DNA of 36,767 nucleotides, from the NCBI GenBank assembly GCA_018826895.1, contig JAHJYA010000027.1, forward strand, positions 1-36,767. Reading direction: 5' to 3'. Shown here piece by piece: positions 8,532-31,528 of this stretch (its first letter is position 1; the number at the start of each line of letters is the position of its first letter). Source of the stretch: Gammaproteobacteria bacterium. GTDB lineage: Bacteria > Pseudomonadota > Gammaproteobacteria > Pseudomonadales > Pseudomonadaceae. The translations under genes were made by a program, and so were the position numbers. A model generated the notes under the pieces. That model was given only the letters and a program-made list of their open reading frames with translations, ran no database searches and was not told the origin of the DNA.

Positions 8532-9863
8532 TTAGAACACGTACTGAGCTCGCAGGCTTATTGCATCGCCATCATCATCGCCATTGGCGTTCTCAATATC
8601 GTCGGCACTAGCTTTCAGGTAGTTGGCAGAAATCTTGACGGCTTCGTTGACATACCAATTCACACCTAAAGTATGCACTTTGGCACCAGCATCGATGCTG
8701 TCTACGGTCAGACCAGCGACAGCCCCAGCAGGCAACCGAGGTGTTTCATCTACAGTGATGTTGTCGTAGCGATAGAACACTTCCCAAGCGCCCAACTGCT
8801 TATCGTTTGGCTTGATCTTGTCAAACTTGCCGCCATCGATTTTATAGCTACGCGATTCGCCAGTCAGGGTGTAGGCCAGCTGTACGTTGTAGCCGGATGC
8901 TTCCAAGTCTTTGTCATTACCGTTCAGCGCCTCGGAACCCTCCGCAGTGCGGCTGAGGTACTCACCCTGGACGGAGAATGGGCCCATCATGTAAGCGGCT
9001 TCCAGGCTATAAGCACTGTCATCACCGTCCAAAAAGGCATCCCCATAGGTGCCGCGATTGCCGTTTACAGTGTCTTCAGTAGTGCCGCGTACGGACAAAC
9101 GTGAACGAATGCGTTCGCGATAGCCTTCTTCTACGTCACGCGTGGCGTAGTTGAGGCCGAAGTGAAGAACCTGATCCGCTTCGACGATCGGTGCAAACAC
9201 ACCACGCATAACGAAAGCATGGTTGTTCTCGCCATCTTCGTTTTGGAAGAACTCGTTGTCATCGCCGAGGTTTTGACGGTAGGCACCGATTTCCCCGTGG
9301 AATACGTCACCCAAGGTTGTGCGCAAACGAACGCCTTCACCATTCATATGGTCGTTGACCCAGGACGCAAGGTCATAGATGGCCGAGCGTTCGATGGCCG
9401 TGATCCACTTAGAGGTGACAGCCTCTTCTAGACCGAAAGTCGGATTCATCCGGCCAATGGTCAGCGTCACAGGCTTGAAACCGGTGTAGGAAATGGATGC
9501 TTCGTTCCAATCGTCATCGGTACCGCTGTCGCCGAAATTACGGTTGAACGTGTATTCGAAATCTTGGTAGGCAACACCAGAAATTTCTAGACGGGCGCGG
9601 CGGAGATACGTCTCGTCCGCGCGGTTACCGTTTGCGGTATACAAACCATCGAAGCTGTCAGCATCCACCTGCAAGCGGCCACCAATTTTGAAGGAAAAGG
9701 CCTTGTCGGTAGTCCCAACTTCCAGGCCACCCTTGGTCTTAACCACGATGTCGGCGCCGTCAGTGGTAACGGTACCGGCGAAAGCCTGGGCGGAAACGGC
9801 CAGGGCCAGAGCGCTGGTTGCGAAGCCGGCCATTACTCCACGAAAGCTGTGCTTACGGATCAT
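8532..9863 (-). CDS. OprO/OprP-family phosphate or pyrophosphate porin
   Basis: A 443-residue outer-membrane porin of the phosphate-selective O/P family (PF07396). It has a Sec signal peptide ending AFA-G at residue 29, a beta-barrel pattern throughout, conserved blocks YTLTGESRSYKIDG and GVNWYVNEAVKISANY, and a terminal phenylalanine (RAQYVF) for barrel assembly. From memory of OprP and OprO, the loop residue that is Tyr114 in phosphate-selective OprP and Asp114 in pyrophosphate-preferring OprO falls in GRMNP here, giving Asn. Which anion it prefers is therefore open. GGGGAA precedes the ATG. Only a weak Pho-box-like sequence is seen upstream (9971-9988). The gene sits between the hvf operon and the ParB-like gene. 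Confidence 0.9.
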   Translation of the reverse strand: MIRKHSFRGVMAGFATSALALAVSAQAFAGTVTTDGADIVVKTKGGLEVGTTDKAFSFKIGGRLQVDADSFDGLYTANGNRADETYLRRARLEISGVAYQDFEYTFNRNFGDSGTDDDWNEASISYTGFKPVTLTIGRMNPTFGLEEAVTSKWITAIERSAIYDLASWVNDHMNGEGVRLRTTLGDVFHGEIGAYRQNLGDDNEFFQNEDGENNHAFVMRGVFAPIVEADQVLHFGLNYATRDVEEGYRERIRSRLSVRGTTEDTVNGNRGTYGDAFLDGDDSAYSLEAAYMMGPFSVQGEYLSRTAEGSEALNGNDKDLEASGYNVQLAYTLTGESRSYKIDGGKFDKIKPNDKQLGAWEVFYRYDNITVDETPRLPAGAVAGLTVDSIDAGAKVHTLGVNWYVNEAVKISANYLKASADDIENANGDDDGDAISLRAQYVF

Positions 9864-10024: not shown

Positions 10025-10621
10025 TCAGCGCTTGCGCAGCCGCCGTGCCAGCCAGTCGTCCACACTCAACCAGCGCCCGGCGCCGCTGAAGAACAGCGCC
10101 ACCAGCATCACCAGATAGGTCGCCGCAAACTCGATGCCGTTGTTCAGCACCACCAGCTTGCCGCTGCTGGTCAGCCAGTCGTAATTGCCGTGCTGCTTGA
10201 GCAGTTCGCGGGCGCGTTCCAGCTTGTCCACCGACGCCATGACCCGCTCGTTGGCGAACGGCGCACTGGCATCGGCAATCGCCTGCCAACCGTAGGGCAG
10301 GTGCACGGCAAAGATCGCCACCAGCATGGTGATAATCAGCGGGATGCTGACCCAGCGCACTGCAAGGCCGAATAACAGCAATAGCGCCCCACCCGTCTCG
10401 GTCAAGGCGGCGGCCCAGGCCAGCAGCTCGGGGAATGGCAAACCCAGGCCCCAATCCGGATTACCAAACCAGGCCGCCGTAGCGTCTATATCCGCCAGCT
10501 TGTGCATGCCAGCCATCCAGAACACTGGCACCAGATAGAGGCGCAGCAGCAACGGGCCGATAAAATCCAGGCGACGAGAAGCATCCAGGGCGTCCTGGAG
10601 ACGATTGAAAAAGCTCAGCAT
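10025..10621 (-). CDS. hvfX: HvfX-like DoxX family membrane protein
   Basis: A 198-residue DoxX-family inner-membrane protein with about four hydrophobic helices: LLLRLYLVPVFWMAGMHKLA, a GGALLLLFGLAVRW region, IPLIITMLVAIFAVH and AATYLVMLVALFFSGAG. It is the last gene of hvfABCX, 53 bp after hvfC. DoxX proteins accompany MNIO-made copper-binding peptides in many proteobacteria, where they are thought to assist maturation or respond to oxidised quinones or thiols; the exact role is unsettled. GGAGAG precedes the ATG at 10621. No terminator is visible between its stop codon and the porin promoter region at 9864-10024. Confidence 0.85.
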   Translation of the reverse strand: MLSFFNRLQDALDASRRLDFIGPLLLRLYLVPVFWMAGMHKLADIDATAAWFGNPDWGLGLPFPELLAWAAALTETGGALLLLFGLAVRWVSIPLIITMLVAIFAVHLPYGWQAIADASAPFANERVMASVDKLERARELLKQHGNYDWLTSSGKLVVLNNGIEFAATYLVMLVALFFSGAGRWLSVDDWLARRLRKR

Positions 10622-10674
10622 GGCCACTCTCCACAAGCCGGCGCCTGGCGCCGAGGGTCAGATACAGCGAGGGG

Positions 10675-11373
10675 TTAAGGGCGCCAGATGCCCTGGCGCT
10701 GCCAGTCATCCAGCACGATCTGGGCGTTATTGAAATACTGCGTGTCGGCCCTCAGGCCATGCTGCTGGGCCAGTTCCAGCAGAGCCTGCTCTGCTGCCTC
10801 GCCGGCCTGCAGACGTATCGCCAATTGATAGGCGAACGGGCTGAGCTGCATAAAGCGCACCTTGTCCTGCCCATCCCGCCAGACCAGCAAGCAGGTAGGC
10901 CCCGCAGGCGGCTTGGTCGGTTGAAAATCCACACCAATACGCTGCACCGGCCACACGTAAGCCAGCGGCCAGGCCAATGGCGACCAGCCCTGCTGCGGCC
11001 CCTCGGCTTCGCTGACATCCAGCGCCAGCTCGACCCATTCGTAATGCGCCAACTCCAGAATAAACGGCGGATCGCCGGCCTCGGCGACATAGCCCTGCTG
11101 CAACCAGGCAAGAAACTCCTGGCTGATCTGCAAGAAATACGGCGTGCGCGCCTGATGCTCGGCGATAAAACTGCGCACCAGGCGCTGCCAGCGACTGGCC
11201 TCGATCAGTCGGTGCAGCACCGGAAAGGCACCGCTGATAAAGCCTTCGATATTGTTGAAGAACAGCGCTTCATACACCGCCATACGCTCGGCCGTAACAC
11301 CCGCAAGCAATGGCTGCTCTGCCGGCTGGCGAATCCGCGCAGCAAAGGCACGTTGTGCGTCAACGCCACTCAT
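10675..11373 (-). CDS. hvfC: HvfC-like RiPP maturation partner (DUF2063)
   Basis: A 232-residue protein of the DUF2063 family. It is the partner that binds the precursor peptide and presents it to the DUF692 (MNIO) enzyme in oxazolone/bufferin-type systems. Landmarks are the N-terminal helical region with VYEALFFNNIEGFISGAFPVLHRL, then ELAHYEWVELALDVSE, the conserved core of the family. Its ATG overlaps the hvfB stop codon by four bases (ATGA), so translation of the two subunits is coupled, as expected for a complex. Cytoplasmic, no signal peptide. An upstream in-frame extension inside hvfB is rejected. Confidence 0.9.
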   Translation of the reverse strand: MSGVDAQRAFAARIRQPAEQPLLAGVTAERMAVYEALFFNNIEGFISGAFPVLHRLIEASRWQRLVRSFIAEHQARTPYFLQISQEFLAWLQQGYVAEAGDPPFILELAHYEWVELALDVSEAEGPQQGWSPLAWPLAYVWPVQRIGVDFQPTKPPAGPTCLLVWRDGQDKVRFMQLSPFAYQLAIRLQAGEAAEQALLELAQQHGLRADTQYFNNAQIVLDDWQRQGIWRP

Positions 11374-12212
11374 GTGCCGTAGCTCCGCAAAGGCGCCGCA
11401 GCTGCTTGCAGCTGACGAATCTGCGCCACCTCGGCATACAGCTCGGCAATCGGCGGGAAGTTGAAGTCGCGTTCCAGCAAAGTCGGGCGCACGCCATGCA
11501 CGGCGTAGGCCTGCGCAAGCAACGCCCACACCGGGTCGATCACCGGTGCGCCGTGGGTGTCGATTTTCAGATCGCTGGCCTGGTCGTAATGCCCGGCCAC
11601 ATGCAGATAGGCGATGCGCGCACTGGGCAGGCTGGCGATATACGCCGGCGCATCGAAGTTAAAATTGATGCTGTTGACGAAGACGTTGTTCACGTCCAGC
11701 AACAGCTGGCAGTCGGCCTGTTCCAGCACCGCGCTGACAAACGTCGCTTCATCCAGCTCGCCCGGCAACTGCGCATAAGCCGAGACGTTCTCGATAATCA
11801 GCGGACGTTCCAGCACGTCCTGCACAATGCGCACGCGCTCGGCAATACGCAGCACCGACTCCTCGGAAAAGGGCAGCGGCATCAGGTCGTATAGCTGGCC
11901 ATGGTCAGCGCAGGCCGACAGATGCTCGCTGTAACCGCGAATACCGTGCTGCTCAAGAAAGCCCTTGATGGCCTTGAGCAGCTCGATATCCAGCGGGGCA
12001 AAACCACCCAGGTTGAGGGACAGACCATGACAGAGCAGTGGCAGGCGCTCGCTCAGGGCACGCAACTGCTTGCCCAGGCGCCCGCCGACACCGATCCAGT
12101 TCTCCGGCGCCACTTCGAGGAAATCCACCTCGCTTGCACTGCAGTCCTGCAGCGCGCCAAGCAGGCCGCGACGTAGACCCAGCCCGGCACCGTTAACGAA
12201 ATCCCTCTGCAT
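11370..12212 (-). CDS. hvfB: HvfB-like MNIO-type RiPP peptide maturase (DUF692)
   Basis: A 280-residue TIM-barrel enzyme of the DUF692 family, the multinuclear non-heme iron oxidases that convert peptide cysteines into oxazolone/thioamide or thiooxazole groups. Expected metal ligands are in place: His62 (CHGLSLNLGG), the SEHLS block at 95-99, Glu141 (IIENVS), Asp173 and Asn175-176 (LLDVNN), His204 and His208 (YLHVAGH), Asp218 and His220 (IDTHG) and Glu247 (LLERD). The start at 12212 is 23 bp after hvfA; a start at 12263 would overlap hvfA and is not needed. Predicted substrate: the EGKCG cysteines of HvfA. Confidence 0.94.
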   Translation of the reverse strand: MQRDFVNGAGLGLRRGLLGALQDCSASEVDFLEVAPENWIGVGGRLGKQLRALSERLPLLCHGLSLNLGGFAPLDIELLKAIKGFLEQHGIRGYSEHLSACADHGQLYDLMPLPFSEESVLRIAERVRIVQDVLERPLIIENVSAYAQLPGELDEATFVSAVLEQADCQLLLDVNNVFVNSINFNFDAPAYIASLPSARIAYLHVAGHYDQASDLKIDTHGAPVIDPVWALLAQAYAVHGVRPTLLERDFNFPPIAELYAEVAQIRQLQAAAAPLRSYGT

Positions 12213-12235
12213 GTTCTGCCCCCGCACTCGCTCAA

Positions 12236-12535
12236 TTACTCGGCTTTTTTCTCGCCGCCGCACTTGCCTTCACCGCATTTGCCCTCGCCTTCGGCCTTGG
12301 CTTCACCACCGCACTTGCCTTCGCCACACTTGCCTTCGCCTTCGGCTTTCTTCATCTCGCCGCCGCACTTGCCCTCGCCACAGCTGCCTTCGGCAGATTT
12401 CTCGCCGGCCGCCAGGCTGTAACCGCTGCTCAGCTCCTGGGCAGCAAAGGGGTTCTGTGCAGCCTGCGCGGAGAACGCAGTCGCGCTCAGCAGTGCAGCA
12501 CCCAGGGAAGCGACAACGACATTGAGTTGTTTCAT
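12236..12535 (-). CDS. hvfA: HvfA-like copper-binding RiPP precursor (oxazolone/bufferin type)
   Basis: A 99-residue precursor peptide. It has a Sec-type leader (VVVASLGAALLSATAFSAQA, cleavage near residue 25), then a linker with SGYSLA. A cysteine-rich tail holds one EGSCG and five EGKCG motifs, with C52, C57, C70, C75, C87 and C92. EGKCG is the motif whose cysteine is modified by HvfB/HvfC in Haemophilus-type systems, giving a copper-chelating peptide exported to the periplasm. GGAG lies seven bases before the ATG. The tail is built of 17-residue tandem repeats. Metal and modification are inferred from family knowledge. Confidence 0.93.
   Translation of the reverse strand: MKQLNVVVASLGAALLSATAFSAQAAQNPFAAQELSSGYSLAAGEKSAEGSCGEGKCGGEMKKAEGEGKCGEGKCGGEAKAEGEGKCGEGKCGGEKKAE
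12245..12346 (-). repeat. 51-bp tandem repeats encoding the Cys-rich units of HvfA
   Basis: Two adjacent 51-bp units encode residues 64-80 and 81-97 (each AEGEGKCGEGKCGGE plus two residues), preceded by a diverged 48-bp unit for residues 48-63. By eye about 40 of 51 bases agree between the two full units, with most differences silent or in the lysine/alanine linker. Confidence 0.85.
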
Positions 12536-12560
12536 GGCCCATCTCCACAGTGATTGGGAC

Positions 12561-12576
12561 GGTGCCGACTGGCACC
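12561..12576 (-). promoter_or_regulatory. hairpin in the hvfA 5' leader
   Basis: A perfect 6-bp stem, GGTGCC with GGCACC and a 4-base loop, would lie within the first 20 nt of the transcript if the ECF-type promoter at 12587-12614 is used. There is no T tract, so it is not a terminator; it may protect the 5' end of the message. Confidence 0.45.
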
Positions 12577-12586
12577 CTCGCATCAC

Positions 12587-12614
12587 TAGACGGGGACCTT
12601 CGCTGCGCGTTACA
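12587..12614 (-). promoter_or_regulatory. candidate ECF sigma-factor promoter of hvfABCX
   Basis: On the minus strand TGTAAC (12609-12614) and CGTCTA (12587-12592) are separated by 16 bp, the format of ECF promoters (AAC-type -35, CGTC-type -10). Transcription would start near 12580, 45 nt ahead of the hvfA ATG. The ECF sigma gene is immediately upstream on the same strand, so it is the natural candidate to read this site. No second copy was seen ahead of the sigma gene or the FabH-like gene. Confidence 0.55.
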
Positions 12615-12743
12615 GGCCCACTGATAATTTTTCTGTAGGGCGCAGTTGAAGGCATACGCACGCCAAAACGGGCCCGGCTTGGAAGCAAGCAGAACGAATG
12701 CAGGGTTAGCAGAAAGGGCTGCAGGGCAGGCCTGCAAGAAGAC

Positions 12744-12977
12744 TCAGGGCAGCTCGCGACGGATCTCGGCCAGGCGGCTGGCGAGCGCATCGAGCTCGGC
12801 GCTGGCAGGTTTGTCCAGCTGCCGCAGCACCGCCTGACTCAGGCGCATCTGGCGGATGAAGCGCCGGCAATGCCCGCACAAGGCCAGGTGCGCGCGCACC
12901 GCCAGACGGCCGCGCAGGTTCAGTTGTCCATCCAGGTAGTCACTGGAATGCGCGACCAGCTCTTTGCACGTCAACAT
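12744..12977 (-). CDS. zinc-finger (ZAS-type) anti-sigma factor
   Basis: A 77-residue protein with the zinc-binding anti-sigma motif H-x3-C-x2-C (HLALCGHC near residues 30-37), preceded by CKELVAHSSDYLDGQL, the zf-HC2 consensus. It has no transmembrane segment, so it would be a cytoplasmic redox- or metal-responsive anti-sigma factor. Its start overlaps the end of the sigma gene by seven bases, the usual arrangement for a sigma/anti-sigma pair. A 208-bp gap then precedes hvfA. The expected role is to hold the ECF factor until zinc is lost or the cysteines are oxidised or bound by metal. Confidence 0.85.
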   Translation of the reverse strand: MLTCKELVAHSSDYLDGQLNLRGRLAVRAHLALCGHCRRFIRQMRLSQAVLRQLDKPASAELDALASRLAEIRRELP

Positions 12978-13573
12978 TGGCCGGTCTCCTCGAAGTGCTC
13001 CAGCGTGGCGAATACCTTCAAACGTGCGCGATGCAGCAGCACACGGACATTGGAGAGCGAGATGTCCAAAAGATTACAGATGTCTTGAAGTTCCAGCCCC
13101 TGTTGCTCACGTAGCTGCAAGACGCTGCCTTGCAACTCGGACAGGCTGGCCAAAGTCCGTGCCAGGCAATCGCGCAGCTCGGCCTCGGTCAGCAGCGCCT
13201 CGGGGGTGTCCTGATGCCAGGCATGGGGGGCGAGCAACCAGTGGCCGTCTTCGGCGAAGCGCGCATCGTCGATGCTGCCGTGAGGCGATGGCAGATCATC
13301 CATCAACACCTCACGGCGGTTGTGGCGCAAACGGGTCTTGGCGGTATTGGCAGTGATGGTCAGCAGCCAGGTCTTGAGACTGGCGCGACCCTGGAAGCCA
13401 TCGAGGCTACGCACCACGGCCAGCCAGGCATCCTGCACCACTTCGTCGGCGTTACGGCTGCCGACAATGGCGAACGCCACCGCGCGCATGGCGCCCTGGT
13501 AAGTGGCAACCAGCTCACGGTAGGCCTTCTGCTCACCAGCCAGAAGACGCTTCAGCAGATCGACATCCGTCAT
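12971..13573 (-). CDS. ECF RNA polymerase sigma factor
   Basis: A 200-residue sigma-70 family ECF factor. Region 2 covers about residues 20-85 (VGSRNADEVVQDAWLAVVRSL, then FQGRASLKTWLLTITANTAKTRLRH). Region 4 covers about 130-185 (LASLSELQGSVLQLREQQG, then LDISLSNVRVLLHRARLKVF, the helix-turn-helix). GGGAG precedes the ATG. It follows the FabH-like gene by 67 bp and overlaps the anti-sigma gene. Its likely target is the promoter ahead of hvfA. The same order is recalled in P. aeruginosa (PA3286, PA3285, PA3284). The inducing signal is probably copper or another thiophilic metal, by inference. Confidence 0.92.
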   Translation of the reverse strand: MTDVDLLKRLLAGEQKAYRELVATYQGAMRAVAFAIVGSRNADEVVQDAWLAVVRSLDGFQGRASLKTWLLTITANTAKTRLRHNRREVLMDDLPSPHGSIDDARFAEDGHWLLAPHAWHQDTPEALLTEAELRDCLARTLASLSELQGSVLQLREQQGLELQDICNLLDISLSNVRVLLHRARLKVFATLEHFEETGQC

Positions 13574-13640: not shown

Positions 13641-14768
13641 TCAGCGCTTGCGCAGGATCACGCTGCCAATCGAGTAACCCGCACCGAAGGAACTCAGCAC
13701 GCCGATGCTGCCACTGGGCAGGTCTTCGTGGTTCTTGTGCAGGGCAATCACCGAGCCGGCCGAGCTGGTGTTGGCGTAGGTATCGAGGATCACCGGCGCT
13801 TCATGGGGCTCAGCGTCACGGCCCAGCAGTTTGCGGGCGATCAGCAGGTTCATGTTGAGGTTGGCCTGGTGTAGCCAGAAGCGCTTGACCTGGGCGACTT
13901 CCAGGCCATTCTCCTGCAGGTGCGCGGCAATCAGTTCGGCAACCATCGGACAGACGTCCTTGAATACCTTGCGACCTTCCTGCACGAACAGCTTGTCGCG
14001 GGTGCCGATCCCCTCTTCCGCCGCGCGGTTGAGGAAGCCGAAGTTGTTGCGGATGGTGTTGCTGAACTGGGTCAGCAGCTTGGTGCCGAGCACGTCGAAC
14101 TGCTGCGCCGAGGTGGCCTGGTCGGCACGCTCGATGATCACGGCGGTGCAAGCATCGCCGAAGATGAAATGGCTGTCGCGGTCACGGAAGTTCAGGTGGC
14201 CGGTGCAGATTTCCGGGTTGACCATCAGGATCGCCCGCGCCTGACCGAGCTGCACGCTGTTGACCGCAGCCTGGATACCGAAGGTAGCCGAGGAGCAGGC
14301 CACGTTCATGTCGTAGCCAAAACCCTGAATGCCTAACGCGGCCTGTACTTCAATGGCCACCGCCGGGTAAGCGCGCTGCAGGTTGGAGCAGGCGACAATC
14401 ACCCCATCGATGTCGGCGGCGGTCTTGCCGGCTCGCGCCAGGGCATCCTGGGCCGCGCCAATGGCCATCTCACAGAGGATGCCCCACTGCTCGTTGCTGC
14501 GTTCAGGGATACGCGGAACCATGCGTGTCGGGTCGAGGATGCCAGCCTTGTCGATAACGAAGCGGCTCTTGATACCCGATGCCTTTTCGATAAAGGCACT
14601 GCTCGACTCGGTCAGCGCTTCGACCCCACCACGCTCGATGGCGCTGGCATTCTCGGCATTGAACTGCTGCACGTAGGCATTGAAGGACGCCACCAGCTCA
14701 TCGTTGGAAATGCTGTTGGCCGGGGTGTACAGGCCGGTACCACTGATGACGACGTTGTGCACGGTCAT
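13641..14768 (-). CDS. beta-ketoacyl-ACP synthase III-like enzyme (PA3286 type)
   Basis: A 375-residue thiolase-fold condensing enzyme of the FabH family with a complete triad: Cys158 in NVACSSATFG, His300 in LHQANLN and Asn333 in YANTSSAGS. It is longer than housekeeping FabH (about 320) and resembles P. aeruginosa PA3286, recalled as a shunt enzyme that condenses octanoyl-CoA from beta-oxidation with malonyl-ACP. The start at 14768 is chosen because the upstream 34 codons are not protein-like. It lies 67 bp upstream of the ECF sigma gene on the same strand and may be co-transcribed with it. Confidence 0.9.
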   Translation of the reverse strand: MTVHNVVISGTGLYTPANSISNDELVASFNAYVQQFNAENASAIERGGVEALTESSSAFIEKASGIKSRFVIDKAGILDPTRMVPRIPERSNEQWGILCEMAIGAAQDALARAGKTAADIDGVIVACSNLQRAYPAVAIEVQAALGIQGFGYDMNVACSSATFGIQAAVNSVQLGQARAILMVNPEICTGHLNFRDRDSHFIFGDACTAVIIERADQATSAQQFDVLGTKLLTQFSNTIRNNFGFLNRAAEEGIGTRDKLFVQEGRKVFKDVCPMVAELIAAHLQENGLEVAQVKRFWLHQANLNMNLLIARKLLGRDAEPHEAPVILDTYANTSSAGSVIALHKNHEDLPSGSIGVLSSFGAGYSIGSVILRKR

Positions 14769-24897: not shown

Positions 24898-27117
24898 ATG
24901 CAGCCATGCTTCAAACTCAGCGCCCTGACCCTAGCCATGTTAATGGCCAGTGCTCCCTCAGCTTTTGCCGCAGAGGACGCCGAAGATGGGCGAGTGCAGC
25001 TGCAGGACGCCGTGGTGCTCGGTACTGCCGCAGACGAGCTGAAACAGGCACCGGGCGTGTCGATCATCACCGCTGAAGACATCAAGAAGCGTCCGCCGGT
25101 CAATGACCTCTCCGAGATCATCCGCAAGATGCCGGGTGTCAATCTCACCGGCAACAGCGCCACAGGCCAGTACGGCAATAATCGCCAGATCGACCTGCGT
25201 GGCATGGGCCCGGAGAACACGCTGATCCTTATCGACGGCAAACCGGTCAGCTCGCGTAACTCGGTGCGCATGGGCCGCAGCGGTGAGCGCAATACCCGTG
25301 GTGATACCAACTGGGTACCGGTCGAGGCCGTGGAGCGCGTCGAGGTGCTGCGTGGTCCGGCGGCAGCACGTTACGGTTCTGGCGCTGCTGGCGGGGTGGT
25401 CAATATCATCACCAAGGCCCCGACCACGAAACACAGTGGTTCTGTTACAGCCTATACCAACGTCCCCGAAGACAGCGCCGAGGGCGATACCCGCCGGCTG
25501 GGCTTCAATGCTGCAGGCCCGTTGACCGAGGCGTTGTCTTATCGCGTTTATGGCAACTTGAACCGTACAGATGCCGACGATCTGTCGCTCAACGAGGACT
25601 TCGCCAGCGCGCCAGGTGCGACGCCACCGGCAGGTCGCGAAGGGGTGCGCAACAAGGATATGAACGGCCTGCTGCGCTGGGACCTGGACCCACAGCAAAC
25701 CCTGGAATTCGAGGGTGGTTTCAGCCGTCAGGGCAATATCTATGCAGGGGATCGCGCCGTTAGCGCAGCGGGTACGCCACTACTATCGGGGTTGGCCGAG
25801 GATGGCGAGGAAACCAACATCATGTATCGCCAGTCGGCTTCGGTGACCCACCGGGGTGATTGGGATTTTGGTACTTCGCAGGTGGTGGCCTCCTATGAAA
25901 ATACCCGCAACCGTCGTCTCAATGAAGGACTTGCCGGTGGGCCGGAAGGCAGTATCAACACGACCAGCGAAATGGCTACCTCTGAGCTGAAGAGCTATCG
26001 CCTGGCGGGAGAAGTGAACCTGCCGCTGCAGTTGGGTTTTGCCCAGGTGCTGACGATCGGCAGCGAGGTGACCCGAGATGAGCTGGATGACCCCTATTCC
26101 ATGTCGCAGAGCACCGACTTCGGTGGGGCGGTGCCTGGCGCAGACACTGGCACGCGTTCCAGCGAGTCGGAGGCCGATAACTACGCGCTGTTTATCGAGG
26201 ACAACATCGAGATCGATTCGCGTTGGATCGTGACACCAGGCCTGCGTCTGGATCACCACAGCCAGTTCGGCAGCAACTGGAGCCCGAGCCTGAACAGTTC
26301 GTACAAACTGACCGATCACCTGACTCTCAAGGGTGGTGTCGCTCGTGCGTTCAAGGCACCGAACCTGTATCAGTCCAACCCCAATTACCTGTACTTCACC
26401 ATGGGTAACGGTTGCCCCGTTGACCTGCCGAGCCTGGGCAACGGTTGCTACGTGCAGGGCAACGATAGCCTTGAGGCCGAGACCAGCCTGAACAAGGAGC
26501 TGGGCCTGGCCTTCGACAAGGCCGGCTGGGGTGCGGGGCTGACCTACTTCCACAACGACTACAAGAACAAGATCACGGCTGGTATGGATCAGGTCGGGCT
26601 AACCGGGGTCAACGGCCGGATCTTTCAGTGGGAGAACGCCCCCAAGGCTGTAGTCGCCGGTTGGGAAGGTTTCTTCAACGTACCACTGCTGGGCACTGAA
26701 GGCGAAATCCTCAGCTGGAACAACAACTTCACCTACATGATCGAGAACCACAATAAAGAGACCCGCGAGCCGCTGTCGGTCATACCGGAGTACACCCTCA
26801 ACTCGATGCTGGACTGGAGCGTCAATCAGTCGCTGGATCTGTCGTTGAGCATGACTCATTACGGTGAGCAGGAGCCGCGCAAGCTCACCACCCAAGGCGG
26901 GCAGGCAGAAGGTGACGCGCTGCGTACTCGTGGTGGCTACACCGTATTTGGTGTCACCGCTAACTACCAACTGAATGACACCTGGAGCTTCTCCACTGGG
27001 GTCAGCAACCTGTTCGACAAGCAGCTGTATCGCGAGGCTAACTCGGGCGGTGAAGGCGCCAACACCTACAACGAACCCGGTCGCGCCTACTTCGCTTCGG
27101 TCACCGCCGGCTTCTAA
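24898..27117 (+). CDS. pfeA: TonB-dependent ferric enterobactin receptor (PfeA/FepA type)
   Basis: A 739-residue outer-membrane TonB-dependent receptor. Signal peptide to about residue 24 (AFAAED); plug domain to about 200 with the signatures LRGMGPENTLILIDGKPVSS in pieces, RVEVLRGPAAARYGSGAAGG and NIITK; then a 22-strand barrel ending TAGF. The segment with GNGCPVDLPSLGNGCYVQG has the paired cysteines typical of FepA/PfeA/PirA external loops. It imports ferric enterobactin or a related catecholate; the enterobactin-esterase gene downstream favours enterobactin. Fur-type control is supported by the boxes upstream. No PfeR/PfeS two-component pair is adjacent. A terminator follows 93 bp after the stop codon. 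Confidence 0.9.
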   Translation: MQPCFKLSALTLAMLMASAPSAFAAEDAEDGRVQLQDAVVLGTAADELKQAPGVSIITAEDIKKRPPVNDLSEIIRKMPGVNLTGNSATGQYGNNRQIDLRGMGPENTLILIDGKPVSSRNSVRMGRSGERNTRGDTNWVPVEAVERVEVLRGPAAARYGSGAAGGVVNIITKAPTTKHSGSVTAYTNVPEDSAEGDTRRLGFNAAGPLTEALSYRVYGNLNRTDADDLSLNEDFASAPGATPPAGREGVRNKDMNGLLRWDLDPQQTLEFEGGFSRQGNIYAGDRAVSAAGTPLLSGLAEDGEETNIMYRQSASVTHRGDWDFGTSQVVASYENTRNRRLNEGLAGGPEGSINTTSEMATSELKSYRLAGEVNLPLQLGFAQVLTIGSEVTRDELDDPYSMSQSTDFGGAVPGADTGTRSSESEADNYALFIEDNIEIDSRWIVTPGLRLDHHSQFGSNWSPSLNSSYKLTDHLTLKGGVARAFKAPNLYQSNPNYLYFTMGNGCPVDLPSLGNGCYVQGNDSLEAETSLNKELGLAFDKAGWGAGLTYFHNDYKNKITAGMDQVGLTGVNGRIFQWENAPKAVVAGWEGFFNVPLLGTEGEILSWNNNFTYMIENHNKETREPLSVIPEYTLNSMLDWSVNQSLDLSLSMTHYGEQEPRKLTTQGGQAEGDALRTRGGYTVFGVTANYQLNDTWSFSTGVSNLFDKQLYREANSGGEGANTYNEPGRAYFASVTAGF

Positions 27118-27209
27118 GGCTTAGCTCCTGCCCATCTCCAGGCGCCAGTCGGACTTCATCCTGCTGTTTGCAGGCAAGCCTGGTGGTCTTGGTGATGGGC
27201 GCTCCTTTG

Positions 27210-27236
27210 CGCCGGGCTCGCGCCTGGCGTTTTTTT
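27210..27236 (+). terminator. Rho-independent terminator after the TonB receptor gene
   Basis: A 7-bp stem (CGCCGGG with CCTGGCG, one G-T pair) and a 6-base loop run into seven T residues. It overlaps the earliest possible start of the methyltransferase frame (TTG at 27235), which makes that start unlikely, and it probably lowers expression of the downstream genes relative to the receptor. Confidence 0.8.
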
Positions 27237-27252
27237 GTTTGGGATGCGCCGG

Positions 27253-28749
27253 ATGACGCTTTGGCAAGACGGTTACCTGACCTCAATTCCTTACCCGCAC
27301 CACGTTCATCGCGAGCTTTCGCCGAGCTGGCTGGTGGCGGTACTCACGGCGCTTGGCGTACGTGCGCCGGTGCTGCGCGAAGGTTTCAGTTATTGCGAGC
27401 TGGGCTGTGGCCAAGGCTTGAATAGCCTGCTGCTGGCGGCTGCCAACCCGACTGGGCGTTTTCTCGCGGTGGATTACAACGCCCAGCATATCGAGCACGG
27501 CCGTAGCCTGGCCACGGCGGCAGGGCTGACAAACCTGGCGTTTCGCCAAGCCAGCTTTGCTGAACTGGCCGAGGAAGAGACGCAGGAGGGTTTCGACTTC
27601 ATCGTCCTGCATGGCGTCTATTCCTGGGTGTCGCCGGATAACCGTGCGGCTATCCGGCGCTTCGTTCAGCGCCGTCTGAACCCGGGCGGAGTGCTCTATC
27701 TCGGTTATATGAGCCACCCAGGTATGTCCGCGTTCATCGGCGCTCAGCGCCTGCTCTGGCAGGTTGCCCAGGGTGCCGCAGGCGGCCCGCGGGAGCGTCT
27801 GCGTGCTGGTCTTGATGCGCTCAAAGCCTTGCAGCAGTCGGGCGCCGGCTACTTTGCCGAGCACCCTGATGTGGCGCGCCGGCTAGCGGGTGCCGACGAT
27901 GCCGACCTGGCGTTTCTCGCCCACGAACTGCTCTGTGAACATTGGGCGCCGATGCATTCAGCCGAGGTGATCGGCGATATCGCCGCGTTTGGCGGGCAGT
28001 TTCTCGGTAGCGCTACGCCCCTGGAAAACATTGATGCGCTGTCGTTGCCGGGGCACTGCCTGGCGCTGTTGCAGGGGCTGGAGGCGCCTGCTCTACGCGA
28101 GACAGCCAAGGACCTGGCGCGCAACCAGGCGCAGCGCCGCGATCTGTTCCAGCATGGGCCGCAGTCGCTGGACGCGGAGCACCATCGCCAGGCGCTGCTC
28201 GCCAGTTGCTGGGCGGCGCTGCCTGGTGCGCCGGCAAGTGGCGCCCTGGTATTCGATACGCGTATCGGCCCGGTACAGGGCGATGCTCAACTGTTCAGCC
28301 CCGTGCTGCAGGCGTTGGCTGCAGGGCCGCGCAGCTTTGCCGAACTGCTGCGCCAGCCCGCCCTGGCCGCACAGCCGGGCAACCTCAGCCCGGCCCTGCA
28401 GATGCTGCTGTGGGCCGGCCATGCCCACCCGCTGCTGGATGCACCGGTGGCGCCAGGCGCCTGCCAGGGGCTTAACCGTTTGCTCGCCGAAGGCGACCTG
28501 CAAGGTGCGGGCTACGGTCATTTGGCGGCGCCGAGCCTGGGCGCGGCGCTCCCCGTGAGCCGCCTGGAAATGGCCGCTGCACGTGTGCTGCTGGAGCATC
28601 CTGAGCTTAGCGGCGAGCTTCTGTACGAAACCGTGCTGGCGCTGCTGCGACGCTTCGACCTGGCCGCCGCTACGCCGGAGCGCGAGCAGTTGCAGCGGTT
28701 CGAGCGGCACACGTTGCCTGTCTGGCGACAACTGGGTGTGGTGGAGTGA
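27253..28749 (+). CDS. class I SAM-dependent methyltransferase with regulatory domain
   Basis: A 498-residue cytoplasmic protein. The SAM-binding Rossmann domain (about residues 30-190) shows motif I YCELGCGQGLNSLLL, acidic VDYN at the end of strand 2, and FDFIVLHGVYSWV as the post-II region. The C-terminal 300 residues match the methyltransferase regulatory domain (PF10119 type). ATG codons at 27244 and 27253 are both possible; GGGA lies eight bases before 27253. Its stop codon overlaps the esterase ATG (TGATG), tying it to the iron-uptake operon. The methyl acceptor is unknown; it could act on a siderophore or its breakdown product. Confidence 0.82.
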   Translation: MTLWQDGYLTSIPYPHHVHRELSPSWLVAVLTALGVRAPVLREGFSYCELGCGQGLNSLLLAAANPTGRFLAVDYNAQHIEHGRSLATAAGLTNLAFRQASFAELAEEETQEGFDFIVLHGVYSWVSPDNRAAIRRFVQRRLNPGGVLYLGYMSHPGMSAFIGAQRLLWQVAQGAAGGPRERLRAGLDALKALQQSGAGYFAEHPDVARRLAGADDADLAFLAHELLCEHWAPMHSAEVIGDIAAFGGQFLGSATPLENIDALSLPGHCLALLQGLEAPALRETAKDLARNQAQRRDLFQHGPQSLDAEHHRQALLASCWAALPGAPASGALVFDTRIGPVQGDAQLFSPVLQALAAGPRSFAELLRQPALAAQPGNLSPALQMLLWAGHAHPLLDAPVAPGACQGLNRLLAEGDLQGAGYGHLAAPSLGAALPVSRLEMAAARVLLEHPELSGELLYETVLALLRRFDLAAATPEREQLQRFERHTLPVWRQLGVVE

Positions 28750-29663
28750 TGAAGGCATTACTGCTGTGCCTGGCGTTAATGCCGCTGTTGGCGTTGGCCA
28801 GGCCTGAACTTGAACAGGCACTGGGGCCTAACCTGGCGGACGAAGGATCGGCGTATTACCGCTTTGAGTCGTTCGAGCTGACGTCTGCCGACGGTGCAAG
28901 ACAGTATCGGGTACGCCTGGCCATTCCTCGGCGTGAAGCGCCAGTCAACGGTTATCCGGTGCTCTATCTGCTTGACGGCAACGCGGCGCTGATGGCCCTG
29001 CGCGAGGATTGGCTGGTCGAAGTGCAGCAGGGCCAGCCACCGCTGTTGGTGATGATAGGGCCGGCCAGTGACCTGCGTCTGGATCTGCCGGCGCGGGTGT
29101 TCGATTACACCCCGCTGCCGCCAGAGGGCGTGGCAGCGCTGGACGTCAGCCTGGGTAACCGGGCCACCGGTGGTGCGCCGGCGTTCCGCGAGTTGCTGGC
29201 CAGTCGCATCAAGCCCGAAGTGGCCAAACGGGTGCGGGTGGATGCCGCGCGCCAGGGTATCTGGGGCCATTCACTGGGTGGTCTGTTCGTGCTCGACACT
29301 TTACGTGTCGAGCCAAATGCTTTTCGCTTTTACATCGCCGCCAGCCCGTCGCTTTGGTGGCAGTCCGGGTTGTTGCTCAAACGCTTCGAAGGCTTTGCTG
29401 GTGGCTTGGGACAACTCTTGGTGTTGCAGGGCGGCGCCGAGCGCGGCGGTCTGCGCGCTGCAGACGATTCGCCGCGTGCACAAGCCATGGCCGCGGTGCC
29501 GGCGCATGCCGCGCGCGAGCTGAGTAAGCAGCTGGGTCGATTGCCCGGTATGCATGCGCAGTATCACGAGTTCGCCGGCCTTGGCCATGGCCCCATGCTT
29601 GCCGCGTCGCTGCGACCAGCCTTGCGCCTGGCTGCCGGCTTGGCGCCTTTTGTTGAGGATTGA
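28749..29663 (+). CDS. pfeE: periplasmic enterobactin esterase (PfeE-like)
   Basis: A 304-residue esterase-D-type hydrolase (PF00756) with a signal peptide (LLLCLALMPLLALARPE). It has the nucleophile Ser175 in GHSLGG and a histidine, His280, in GLGHGPM for the triad. PfeE of P. aeruginosa (PA2689, next to pfeA) cuts ferric enterobactin in the periplasm to free iron, and this gene has the same neighbour. Substrate assignment rests on that context. The start overlaps the methyltransferase stop codon. The next gene begins three bases after this one ends. Confidence 0.86.
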   Translation: MKALLLCLALMPLLALARPELEQALGPNLADEGSAYYRFESFELTSADGARQYRVRLAIPRREAPVNGYPVLYLLDGNAALMALREDWLVEVQQGQPPLLVMIGPASDLRLDLPARVFDYTPLPPEGVAALDVSLGNRATGGAPAFRELLASRIKPEVAKRVRVDAARQGIWGHSLGGLFVLDTLRVEPNAFRFYIAASPSLWWQSGLLLKRFEGFAGGLGQLLVLQGGAERGGLRAADDSPRAQAMAAVPAHAARELSKQLGRLPGMHAQYHEFAGLGHGPMLAASLRPALRLAAGLAPFVED

Positions 29664-29666
29664 CCT

Positions 29667-29957
29667 ATGGCGATCATTGCGCCGGCCTGGTGGCCGGTGG
29701 TTTGCCGAATACTGGCGGCGATTGTGGGCGGCTATGCCTTCACCTATGCCTTTACTGCAGCGCTGGCGCGGGTGTTGCCCTTGCCGGCGGTCGATGCGGT
29801 GTGGGTCGCCTCGTTGCCGGCATTTGCCCTCTATACCTTGGCCATGCTCTGGGCCTTCGCCGCGCGCAGCCTCTGGCGGGCCTGGTGGGGCGTCGCTTTG
29901 GCGCTGCCGCTGGGATTGCTTGGCTTCTGGCCGCAACTGATGGAGCGCCTGGCATGA
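29667..29957 (+). CDS. small inner-membrane protein, DUF3649 type
   Basis: A 96-residue protein that is nearly all membrane: three hydrophobic stretches (RILAAIVGGYAFTYAFTAAL, WVASLPAFALYTLAMLWAF, ALALPLGLLGFW). Recognised as DUF3649 by length and by its place ahead of a PepSY protein in an iron-uptake operon. The stop codon overlaps the next ATG by four bases. GAGG lies about ten bases before its start. The function is unknown, presumably part of a membrane assembly with the two following gene products. Confidence 0.8.
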   Translation: MAIIAPAWWPVVCRILAAIVGGYAFTYAFTAALARVLPLPAVDAVWVASLPAFALYTLAMLWAFAARSLWRAWWGVALALPLGLLGFWPQLMERLA

Positions 29958-31528
29958 AGCAGACCCTGACGCAGTCGATGGCCTGGCTGCACACCTGGGG
30001 CGGCCTGGTGTTCGGCTGGTTGCTGTTCGCTATCTTCCTCACCGGCACCCTGGCGGTGTTCGACAAGGAGCTCGACCTGTGGATGCGCCCGGAAGTCCCG
30101 GCGCAGAAGGTCGAGCAGAGCCAGGCCTTGCAGCGCGCGCTGGCGTATCTGCAGGCCAAGCACCCGCAGGCCGAACGCTGGAACATCAGCCTGCCCAGCG
30201 AGCGTTCGCCGACCCTCGGTGTCTCGGCCGGTAACCAGCGCCGCGGTGGTGGCGAGCAACTGGATCCGCAGACGGGCGAGCCGCTGGCGGTGCGTGAAAC
30301 AGCCGGTGGCGGGTTCTTCTTTCGGTTTCACTTCACCCTCAATATGCCGCGTACGCTCGGCATCTGGCTGGTAGGGTTGGCCGCCATGGCCATGCTGGTG
30401 GCGTTGGTCAGCGGCATCGTCATCCACAAGAAAATCTTCAAGGAGTTCTTCACCTTTCGCCCCGGCAAAGGCCAGCGCTCCTGGCTCGACGGGCACAACG
30501 CCAGTGCGGTGCTGTTGCTGCCTTTTCATTTGATGATTACTTACACCGGCCTGGTGATTTTCCTGCTGATCTATATGCCGGCGGCGGTCGATGCGCTGTA
30601 TGGCGACCGCGAGGCGTTCGGTCGCGCGCTACGCGGCGCGCCAGTCGAGCAACAAGCTGCGCGCGGCGGCGAGCAAGGCGCCCGGCAGGAACGCGCTGAA
30701 CGCCCGCGTGCGGCGCCGGCCCCATTGGCTGCACTCGGCCCGCTACTGGCAGAGGCCGAGCAACAGATGGGACCGCTGGCCGGGCTGTCGATTGATCACC
30801 CCGGGCGCAGCGATGCGCGTATTGAGGTCCGGCCGATTCTGGGCAACCGCATCGAACTGACCAAGGGCCGTAGCATGCTGTTCGATGGCGTCAGTGGCGC
30901 GGTCTTGCGCGCGCCGGCCGAGAGCCGACCGAGCCAGTTGACCCAGCGGGTAATGGCTGGGTTGCACTTTGCCCAGTTCGGCGGCTACCCGATGCGCTGG
31001 CTGTATTTCCTTTGTGGCCTGGTCAGCAGTGCGATGATCGCCAGCGGCCTGGTGCTGTTTTGCGTCAAACGGCGGCGCAAATATGCCAGTGAGGCGCCCG
31101 CTGCGCGGCGCGTCTCTCACCTGATCGAGGCGCTCAACCTGGCGGCGGTCGCCGGCCTGAGCCTGGCATGCATCGGCCTGCTCTGGGCCAACCGGCTGCT
31201 GCCTGTGGAGCTGGCGCAGCGCGCCGCCTGGGAGGTCAACGCATTCTTCGTGGTGTGGTTGCTCAGCCTGCTGCATGCGCTGTGGCGCCCGACGCTGCGC
31301 GGTTGGGGCGAGCAGCTTGGGCTGGCTGCGCTGCTTTGTATGGCGCTGCCGTTGCTCAGCCTGTTGACGTTGCCACAGCCGTGGGCGCAGCCACTGCACC
31401 AGGCATTGGAGTTGACCAGCCTGGCGTTAGGCGTGGCGTTGGCTTGGTTGGCCTGGCGCGTTTATCGACGCCAGGAGGTTGCGCCGCCGCTGCCCAGGCG
31501 CGGCGCTGTCATGCGGGAGGCGCTCTGA
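29954..31528 (+). CDS. PepSY-associated TM protein, likely siderophore ferric reductase
   Basis: A 524-residue inner-membrane protein. A first helix (GGLVFGWLLFAIFLTGTLAVF) follows LHTW, a PepSY-like periplasmic part follows, then further helices near 145-165, 190-215, 350-375 and a C-terminal group of four. Histidines in LHTW, FHFTLN, VIHKKIF, DGHNASAV, PFHLM and GLHFAQ could bind heme or iron, as in FoxB and PiuB-type reductases that free iron from siderophores. A Gln/Arg/Ala-rich linker (residues 230-265) separates the halves. The start overlaps the DUF3649 stop codon, and its own stop overlaps the next start by one base. Confidence 0.88.
   Translation: MKQTLTQSMAWLHTWGGLVFGWLLFAIFLTGTLAVFDKELDLWMRPEVPAQKVEQSQALQRALAYLQAKHPQAERWNISLPSERSPTLGVSAGNQRRGGGEQLDPQTGEPLAVRETAGGGFFFRFHFTLNMPRTLGIWLVGLAAMAMLVALVSGIVIHKKIFKEFFTFRPGKGQRSWLDGHNASAVLLLPFHLMITYTGLVIFLLIYMPAAVDALYGDREAFGRALRGAPVEQQAARGGEQGARQERAERPRAAPAPLAALGPLLAEAEQQMGPLAGLSIDHPGRSDARIEVRPILGNRIELTKGRSMLFDGVSGAVLRAPAESRPSQLTQRVMAGLHFAQFGGYPMRWLYFLCGLVSSAMIASGLVLFCVKRRRKYASEAPAARRVSHLIEALNLAAVAGLSLACIGLLWANRLLPVELAQRAAWEVNAFFVVWLLSLLHALWRPTLRGWGEQLGLAALLCMALPLLSLLTLPQPWAQPLHQALELTSLALGVALAWLAWRVYRRQEVAPPLPRRGAVMREAL

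Follow-up and report, generated by a model that had tools for sequence, protein, structure and literature searches.

The 36,767-nucleotide contig JAHJYA010000027.1 (assembly GCA_018826895.1) from a gammaproteobacterium of the Pseudomonadaceae, a stretch which is called the window throughout, carries a cluster of the hvfABCX type, directly preceded on the same strand by the genes for an extracytoplasmic function (ECF) sigma factor and a zinc-finger anti-sigma factor (Table 1). What this sigma pair controls, and to which signal it responds, is the subject of the present analysis. The genome of which the window is a part amounts to 4.4 Mb in 136 contigs and is 88% complete. In the direction of transcription, on the minus strand, the order is sigma, anti-sigma, a 208-nt gap, hvfA, hvfB, hvfC and hvfX; the sigma and anti-sigma genes overlap by 7 nt, and the gap between the anti-sigma stop and hvfA contains a promoter-like site.

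Table 1. Features of the sigma–hvf locus, in window coordinates
Feature	Position	Strand	Description
ECF sigma gene	12971..13573	-	200 aa; Sigma70_r2, Sigma70_r4_2
Zinc-associated anti-sigma (ZAS) gene, cytoplasmic	12744..12977	-	77 aa; zf-HC2 and NCBIfam NF052368 above cut-off
Promoter-like site TGTAAC-N16-CGTC	12589..12614	-	79 bp upstream of hvfA start
hvfA, precursor peptide	12236..12535	-	99 aa; leader, EGKCG repeats, six Cys
hvfB, MNIO (DUF692) enzyme	11370..12212	-	PF05114; NF003818 408.7 vs cut-off 360 bits
hvfC, DUF2063 partner	10675..11373	-	PF09836, PF22106; NF050145 279 vs cut-off 142
hvfX, DoxX-like membrane protein	10025..10621	-	PF07681; NF050144 229.4 vs cut-off 80
beta-ketoacyl-ACP synthase III gene	13641..14768	-	PRK07515; start 14768 chosen inside a longer frame reaching 14870
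Phosphate-type porin gene	8532-9863		downstream of hvf

A first-pass annotation, made from the sequence by a model, had described positions 10025..13573 as a complete operon of this kind, and the description of the genes holds. All four hvf genes are intact, HvfB, HvfC and HvfX scoring above the cut-offs of their models; HvfA is recognised by the domain model NF050137, also above cut-off, and falls below that of the equivalog NF050188 (56.4 vs 95 bits). The precursor has the proposed leader and five EGKCG motifs, with cysteines at positions 52, 57, 70, 75, 87 and 92. The alignment of HvfB with the solved MNIO structure 3bww covers two stretches, and the hvfC start is coupled to the end of hvfB by the expected ATGA, a 4-nt overlap. 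The cytoplasmic location assigned to the anti-sigma factor agrees with the absence of any hydrophobic stretch of 19 residues (best mean 0.49); its zinc ligands are Cys4, His30, Cys34 and Cys37. The genes are conserved in other species, which rules out chance as the source of the cluster.

The hvf cluster is ordinary for its kind, the oxazolin/captophorin or EGKCG type. Like the hvf, ngo and fon clusters it combines a precursor with leader and EGKCG motifs, an MNIO enzyme, a DUF2063 partner and a DoxX protein (PMC13097082, PMC13419390; here and below, papers are cited for the passages that bear on the point). The Haemophilus and gonococcal peptides contain 5-thiooxazoles and bind copper, and for the Haemophilus product the choice between oxazolone/thioamide and thiooxazole has been settled in favour of the 5-thiooxazole (PMC13097082, PMC13419390). 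The window HvfA has six cysteines, as has the Haemophilus precursor, and its product is a predicted one. An ECF sigma gene likewise adjoins the MNIO peptide clusters of the Buf1 bufferins, and the relevant section of a survey of MNIO clusters attributes sigma and NrsF genes to Buf1 clusters and none to EGKCG clusters (PMC12452194). Unlike the window, however, Buf1 clusters have a DUF2282 precursor and NrsF; neither has a Pfam match in the window, and assignment to the NrsF/bufferin type was rejected on that ground.

The sigma pair and the site upstream of hvfA

Relatives of the window sigma protein were taken as the best 80 of 296 named loci (at least 77% identity), 76 of which are titled Pseudomonas. 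In all 80 loci the sigma gene is flanked by matches to the synthase on the upstream side and to the anti-sigma factor on the downstream side, and the zinc-ligand pattern C-x25-H-x3-C-x2-C, counted from Cys4, is present in the window anti-sigma factor and in all 80 relatives. The hvf genes are far less constant: the sequence retrieved around the sigma gene includes hvfA in 23 loci, 114 to 4481 nt away from the match to the anti-sigma factor, and lacks it in the other 57, four of which extend for under 5 kb beyond the anti-sigma gene. The sigma pair is a conserved Pseudomonas module and hvf an optional candidate target. A pair dedicated to hvf was rejected on these 57 loci, and the first-pass view of the pair as the operon's own is not supported; hvfB is, moreover, distant from the sigma gene in 11 of 40 genomes (see below). 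In P. cuatrocienegasensis (L001, 6928-7531; sigma 99% identical) the pair is intact, but most of hvf has gone, and what remains are two pieces of hvfC, joined together, and a fragment of hvfX.

Within a family set of 298 genomes the sigma factor, called present at E values up to 1e-60, occurs in 128, and the genomes with the 40 best HvfB matches all belong to these (Fisher 3.5e-17 vs 128/298, computed with ancestry ignored). The hvfB gene is within 6 kb of the sigma gene in 29 of the 40 and further away or on another contig in 11. The window's own genome contains only three further matches to the sigma factor, all weak (E up to 0.001). One genome, G126, has synthase, sigma, anti-sigma, hvfABCX and porin genes in the window's order, an anti-sigma factor 67% identical to the window's, and the exact site at both hvfA and msrB; we take it to be kin of P. 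aeruginosa, as its azurin is 98% identical to the P. aeruginosa azurin.

The site in the 208-nt gap, TGTAAC-N16-CGTC, is exact upstream of hvfA in 21 of the 23 named loci and one base off in CGTC in the other two. It lies 73-85 bp from hvfA, with an A-rich stretch on its 5' side. It accompanies hvf even where the cluster lies away from the sigma gene, being exact in ten of these 11 genomes (G171 and G203 among them), with TGTAAT in the eleventh (G246). Another hvf type, which occurs in the family with or without a window-type sigma factor, has the site in 0 of 20 loci (L235-L254; 11 loci in genomes without the sigma factor, 9 in genomes with it), with the reservation that in 6 of the 20 no precursor gene was seen within 800 bp of hvfB, so that the upstream region may fall outside the scan. 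In the remaining 14 an EGKCG peptide is readable before hvfB, 13 times with what we read as an EF-hand-like tail. The boundary between the two HvfB types (376 vs 357 bits) was placed after the scores were known, and identities overlap at its edge (62-63%); in G155, one of the sigma-bearing genomes, the two types occur together, and the site is present at the first type alone.

The sigma pair itself has no such site in any of the 80 loci, from 300 bp upstream of the synthase gene to the sigma start, as far as the stretches reach. The pair is therefore probably not self-amplifying, and a single autoregulated operon of the Neisseria kind was rejected. In one Pseudomonas subgroup (L095-L099) CTGTAACG...ACGTCTA stands upstream of a small gene and of an NADH-dehydrogenase-like gene, possibly as another ECF target; the sigma relative of one carrier of these sites, G087, is only 54% identical.

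msrB as a candidate second target

The window's genome has TGTAAC-N16-CGTC also at 155 bp upstream of msrB, the gene for a methionine sulfoxide reductase, whose downstream neighbours are glutathione-peroxidase-like and MarR-like frames; the Neisseria msr result was already known when this site was met. Upstream regions of msrB were compared in 120 of 287 genomes with a match, a non-random choice among the matches listed. In the first set, of 45 sigma-bearing and 35 sigma-less genomes, the site is exact in 23 of the former and 2 of the latter. Many genomes of this set, with and without the sigma factor, retain the flank CTTGGCAG ... CAGACT, while both hexamers are mostly absent where the sigma factor is absent.

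Some msrB upstream regions, such as that of L088, have a terminator-like element between the ECF-type site and the gene, namely a G+C-rich inverted repeat with a T run behind it. A structured msrB leader was rejected, a 55-nt fold of one piece being no better than shuffles (z -1.29), and so was a known RNA family near msrB, for which there is one weak match below the gathering score in L088, L100 and L101.

Precedents and the proposed switch

Two characterised systems combine the same components. The sigma factor sigma-E of N. meningitidis (NMB2144) is encoded with a DoxX-like gene in the operon NMB2140-2145 and controls this operon as well as msrA/msrB, and its anti-sigma factor NMB2145 needs Cys4, Cys34 and Cys37; in gonococci two of the operon genes and msrAB are up with peroxide (PMC2893595). 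In H. influenzae, RpoE2 and its 67-residue anti-sigma factor HrsE drive msrAB and a DoxX/COG3220/DUF2063 cluster under hypochlorite (PMC7907618). The window resembles Neisseria in the position of the ligands Cys4, His30, Cys34 and Cys37, in the DoxX-containing cluster that adjoins the sigma gene, in msr as the second (here candidate) target and in the -10 element CGTC, and it resembles Haemophilus in having an ECF sigma factor, a cytoplasmic ZAS anti-sigma factor, an hvf cluster and msr as candidate targets, and hypochlorite as the predicted signal. The comparison with NmSigE and HiRpoE2 (ECF group 13) covered layout, anti-sigma factor and targets. There are differences in wiring. Neisseria has one autoregulated operon, whereas the window has a separate promoter-like site before hvfA (PMC2893595); in Haemophilus the sigma gene is near msrAB with hvf elsewhere, whereas in the window it is near hvf, behind the beta-ketoacyl synthase gene, with msrB elsewhere (PMC7907618). 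Autoregulation, strong in Neisseria and slight in Haemophilus, finds no counterpart in a site at the pair in the 80 loci. Because control of hvf and msr by a sigma factor with a zinc-finger anti-sigma factor has been shown in both genera, the layout in the window can be read as a third instance of a known switch, all regulation here being predicted; control is experimental in Haemophilus and in the window is deduced from the shared site. The first-pass proposal that the pair switches hvf is accordingly favoured by the conserved ECF-type site and the two experimental precedents, a partial support that extends to putative control and not to the exclusive relationship which the layout had suggested.

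We consider it likely, though well short of certain, that the ECF sigma factor and its zinc-finger partner form a cytoplasmic oxidant-sensing switch that turns on, in trans, both hvfABCX and the distant msrB. At rest, the reduced and zinc-loaded anti-sigma factor would hold the sigma factor, as its four ligands stand at the NMB2145 positions, where three cysteines are important. Oxidants of the hypochlorite type would oxidise these cysteines, zinc would leave and the sigma factor would be freed, whereupon RNA polymerase could read hvfA and msrB from the site that both share. By analogy with the Haemophilus, Neisseria and Fontimonas products, HvfB and HvfC would convert the six cysteines of HvfA to 5-thiooxazoles; once exported, the peptide would bind copper and keep it in the periplasm, and oxidised methionine would be repaired by MsrB. 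Having no site of its own, the pair would probably not amplify the response.

Evidence against the proposed switch, and other explanations

Several observations weigh against such a switch. Meningococcal sigma-E is not induced by peroxide, diamide or singlet oxygen, and the Neisseria -35 element (GTMAGBWTT, spacer 12-13) differs from the window site, only CGTC being common to both (PMC2893595). The pattern TGTAACN{15,18}CGTC has 10 matches in the window's genome against 30 in a reversed control, that is, no genome-wide enrichment; five of the ten have N16, the hvfA and msrB sites among them. The msrB site is exact in only 1 of 20 sigma-bearing and 0 of 20 sigma-less genomes of a second set, from one genus and with more distant msrB, which brings the pooled counts to 24 of 65 and 2 of 55. 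Even in the first set 22 of the 45 sigma-bearing genomes are without the exact site (12 with GGTC for CGTC, 5 with TGTAAT and CGTC), and the two sigma-less genomes that retain it, G214 and G150, have no close sigma factor. Some other sigma-less genomes have TGAAAC or GGAAAC in place of TGTAAC at msrB (including L222, L225 and L228), which suggests that another ECF sigma factor may read msrB there. Outside some clades the link to msrB is patchy. Our reading of the upstream regions is that msrB may be controlled by the window-type sigma factor in some clades, with this control lost or taken over elsewhere. Lastly, G126 has two HvfB-like genes, and the passages on a hypochlorite-induced DUF692 module in P. 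aeruginosa (PMC9023270) give no gene names, so that the module may be the other cluster.

Could the neighbouring sigma factor be a bystander, with TGTAAC-N16-CGTC read by another ECF sigma factor or a master regulator, and the pair serving the beta-ketoacyl synthase or other genes? The constancy of synthase, sigma and anti-sigma where hvf comes and goes, the missing site before the pair and the sigma-less genomes with an msrB site speak for this. Yet the top 40 HvfB genomes without exception carry the sigma factor, the hvf type that is found with and without it has no site, and the window's genome offers only the three weak sigma matches as substitutes, which makes a bystander an improbable explanation. 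We think equally little of a copper switch, in which copper would displace or oxidise the zinc site of the anti-sigma factor, the sigma factor would serve copper defence via hvf, and msrB would be a side target. The first-pass suggestion that the zinc finger senses copper finds no support in the present data; hvf products do bind copper (PMC13097082), and the P. aeruginosa DUF692 module, one for a ribosomally synthesised and post-translationally modified peptide, is up with hypochlorite, N-acetylglucosamine and also supplemented copper (PMC9023270), but the pair persists without a nearby hvfA in most loci, and both the site at msrB and the precedent in Haemophilus favour oxidants as the signal (PMC7907618). 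The word copper is absent from the text of the Haemophilus paper, so copper is not excluded in Haemophilus itself.

The proposed oxidant-sensing switch also bears on a sigma factor of P. aeruginosa. We take the window sigma factor to be of the PA3285/ECF293 type on the basis of presumed synteny with PA3285. One publication gives PA3285 neither an anti-sigma factor nor a function (PMC3832394, 2013), and another lists it as ECF293 and predicts regulation by PvdS (PMC8999054). In contrast to ECF293 as a published group, an anti-sigma gene stands beside the window-type sigma gene in all 80 loci, and PA3285-type sigma factors very likely have both an anti-sigma factor and a function. That these sigma factors are controlled by their own transcription via PvdS, with no working anti-sigma factor and an irrelevant zinc-finger gene, would fit both publications and is most improbable, given that in every one of the 80 loci the sigma gene is overlapped by a zinc-finger gene that encodes the complete ligand set, and that G126, the presumed kin of P. 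aeruginosa, has one with 67% identity. PA3282-PA3284 are presumably hvf genes of P. aeruginosa; if so, a rise of their expression in a znuA mutant would fit zinc loss from the anti-sigma factor. They are up 4.1- to 5.0-fold in such a mutant with no Zur site listed, in a study whose text does not mention PA2827 (PMC4542158). This latter gene, the P. aeruginosa msrB, is activated by hypochlorite (PMC9241726, via citation) and overproduced under oxidative stress (PMC10687435, via citation). Whether the PA3285-type sigma factor is the missing hypochlorite switch, held by an overlooked zinc-finger anti-sigma factor and running msrB and, where present, hvf, appears to us evenly balanced; in that case thiooxazole copper peptides would belong to oxidant defence, coupled to methionine repair in three genera or more, and would not be the output of a copper sensor.

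Among the titles and abstracts listed in searches of open-access literature we found none that connects, for Pseudomonas, a PA3285-type sigma factor with hvf and msrB. New here are the promoter-like site and the finding that hvf is optional, and, as predictions, the link to msrB and a likely anti-sigma factor for sigma factors of the PA3285 type. If the predictions are correct, Pseudomonas would be the third genus in which one switch controls an msr gene together with this widespread kind of copper-peptide cluster, and a role of such peptides in oxidant defence would be suggested. The hypochlorite-induced msrB of Pseudomonas would gain a candidate regulator, and a sigma factor described without anti-sigma factor or function would gain a candidate partner, two candidate targets and a testable candidate promoter. 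Elsewhere in the window (24898-31528, plus strand) genes for a TonB-dependent receptor, a methyltransferase, an esterase and a PepSY-domain protein stand in a row, like a metal-chelate uptake cluster.

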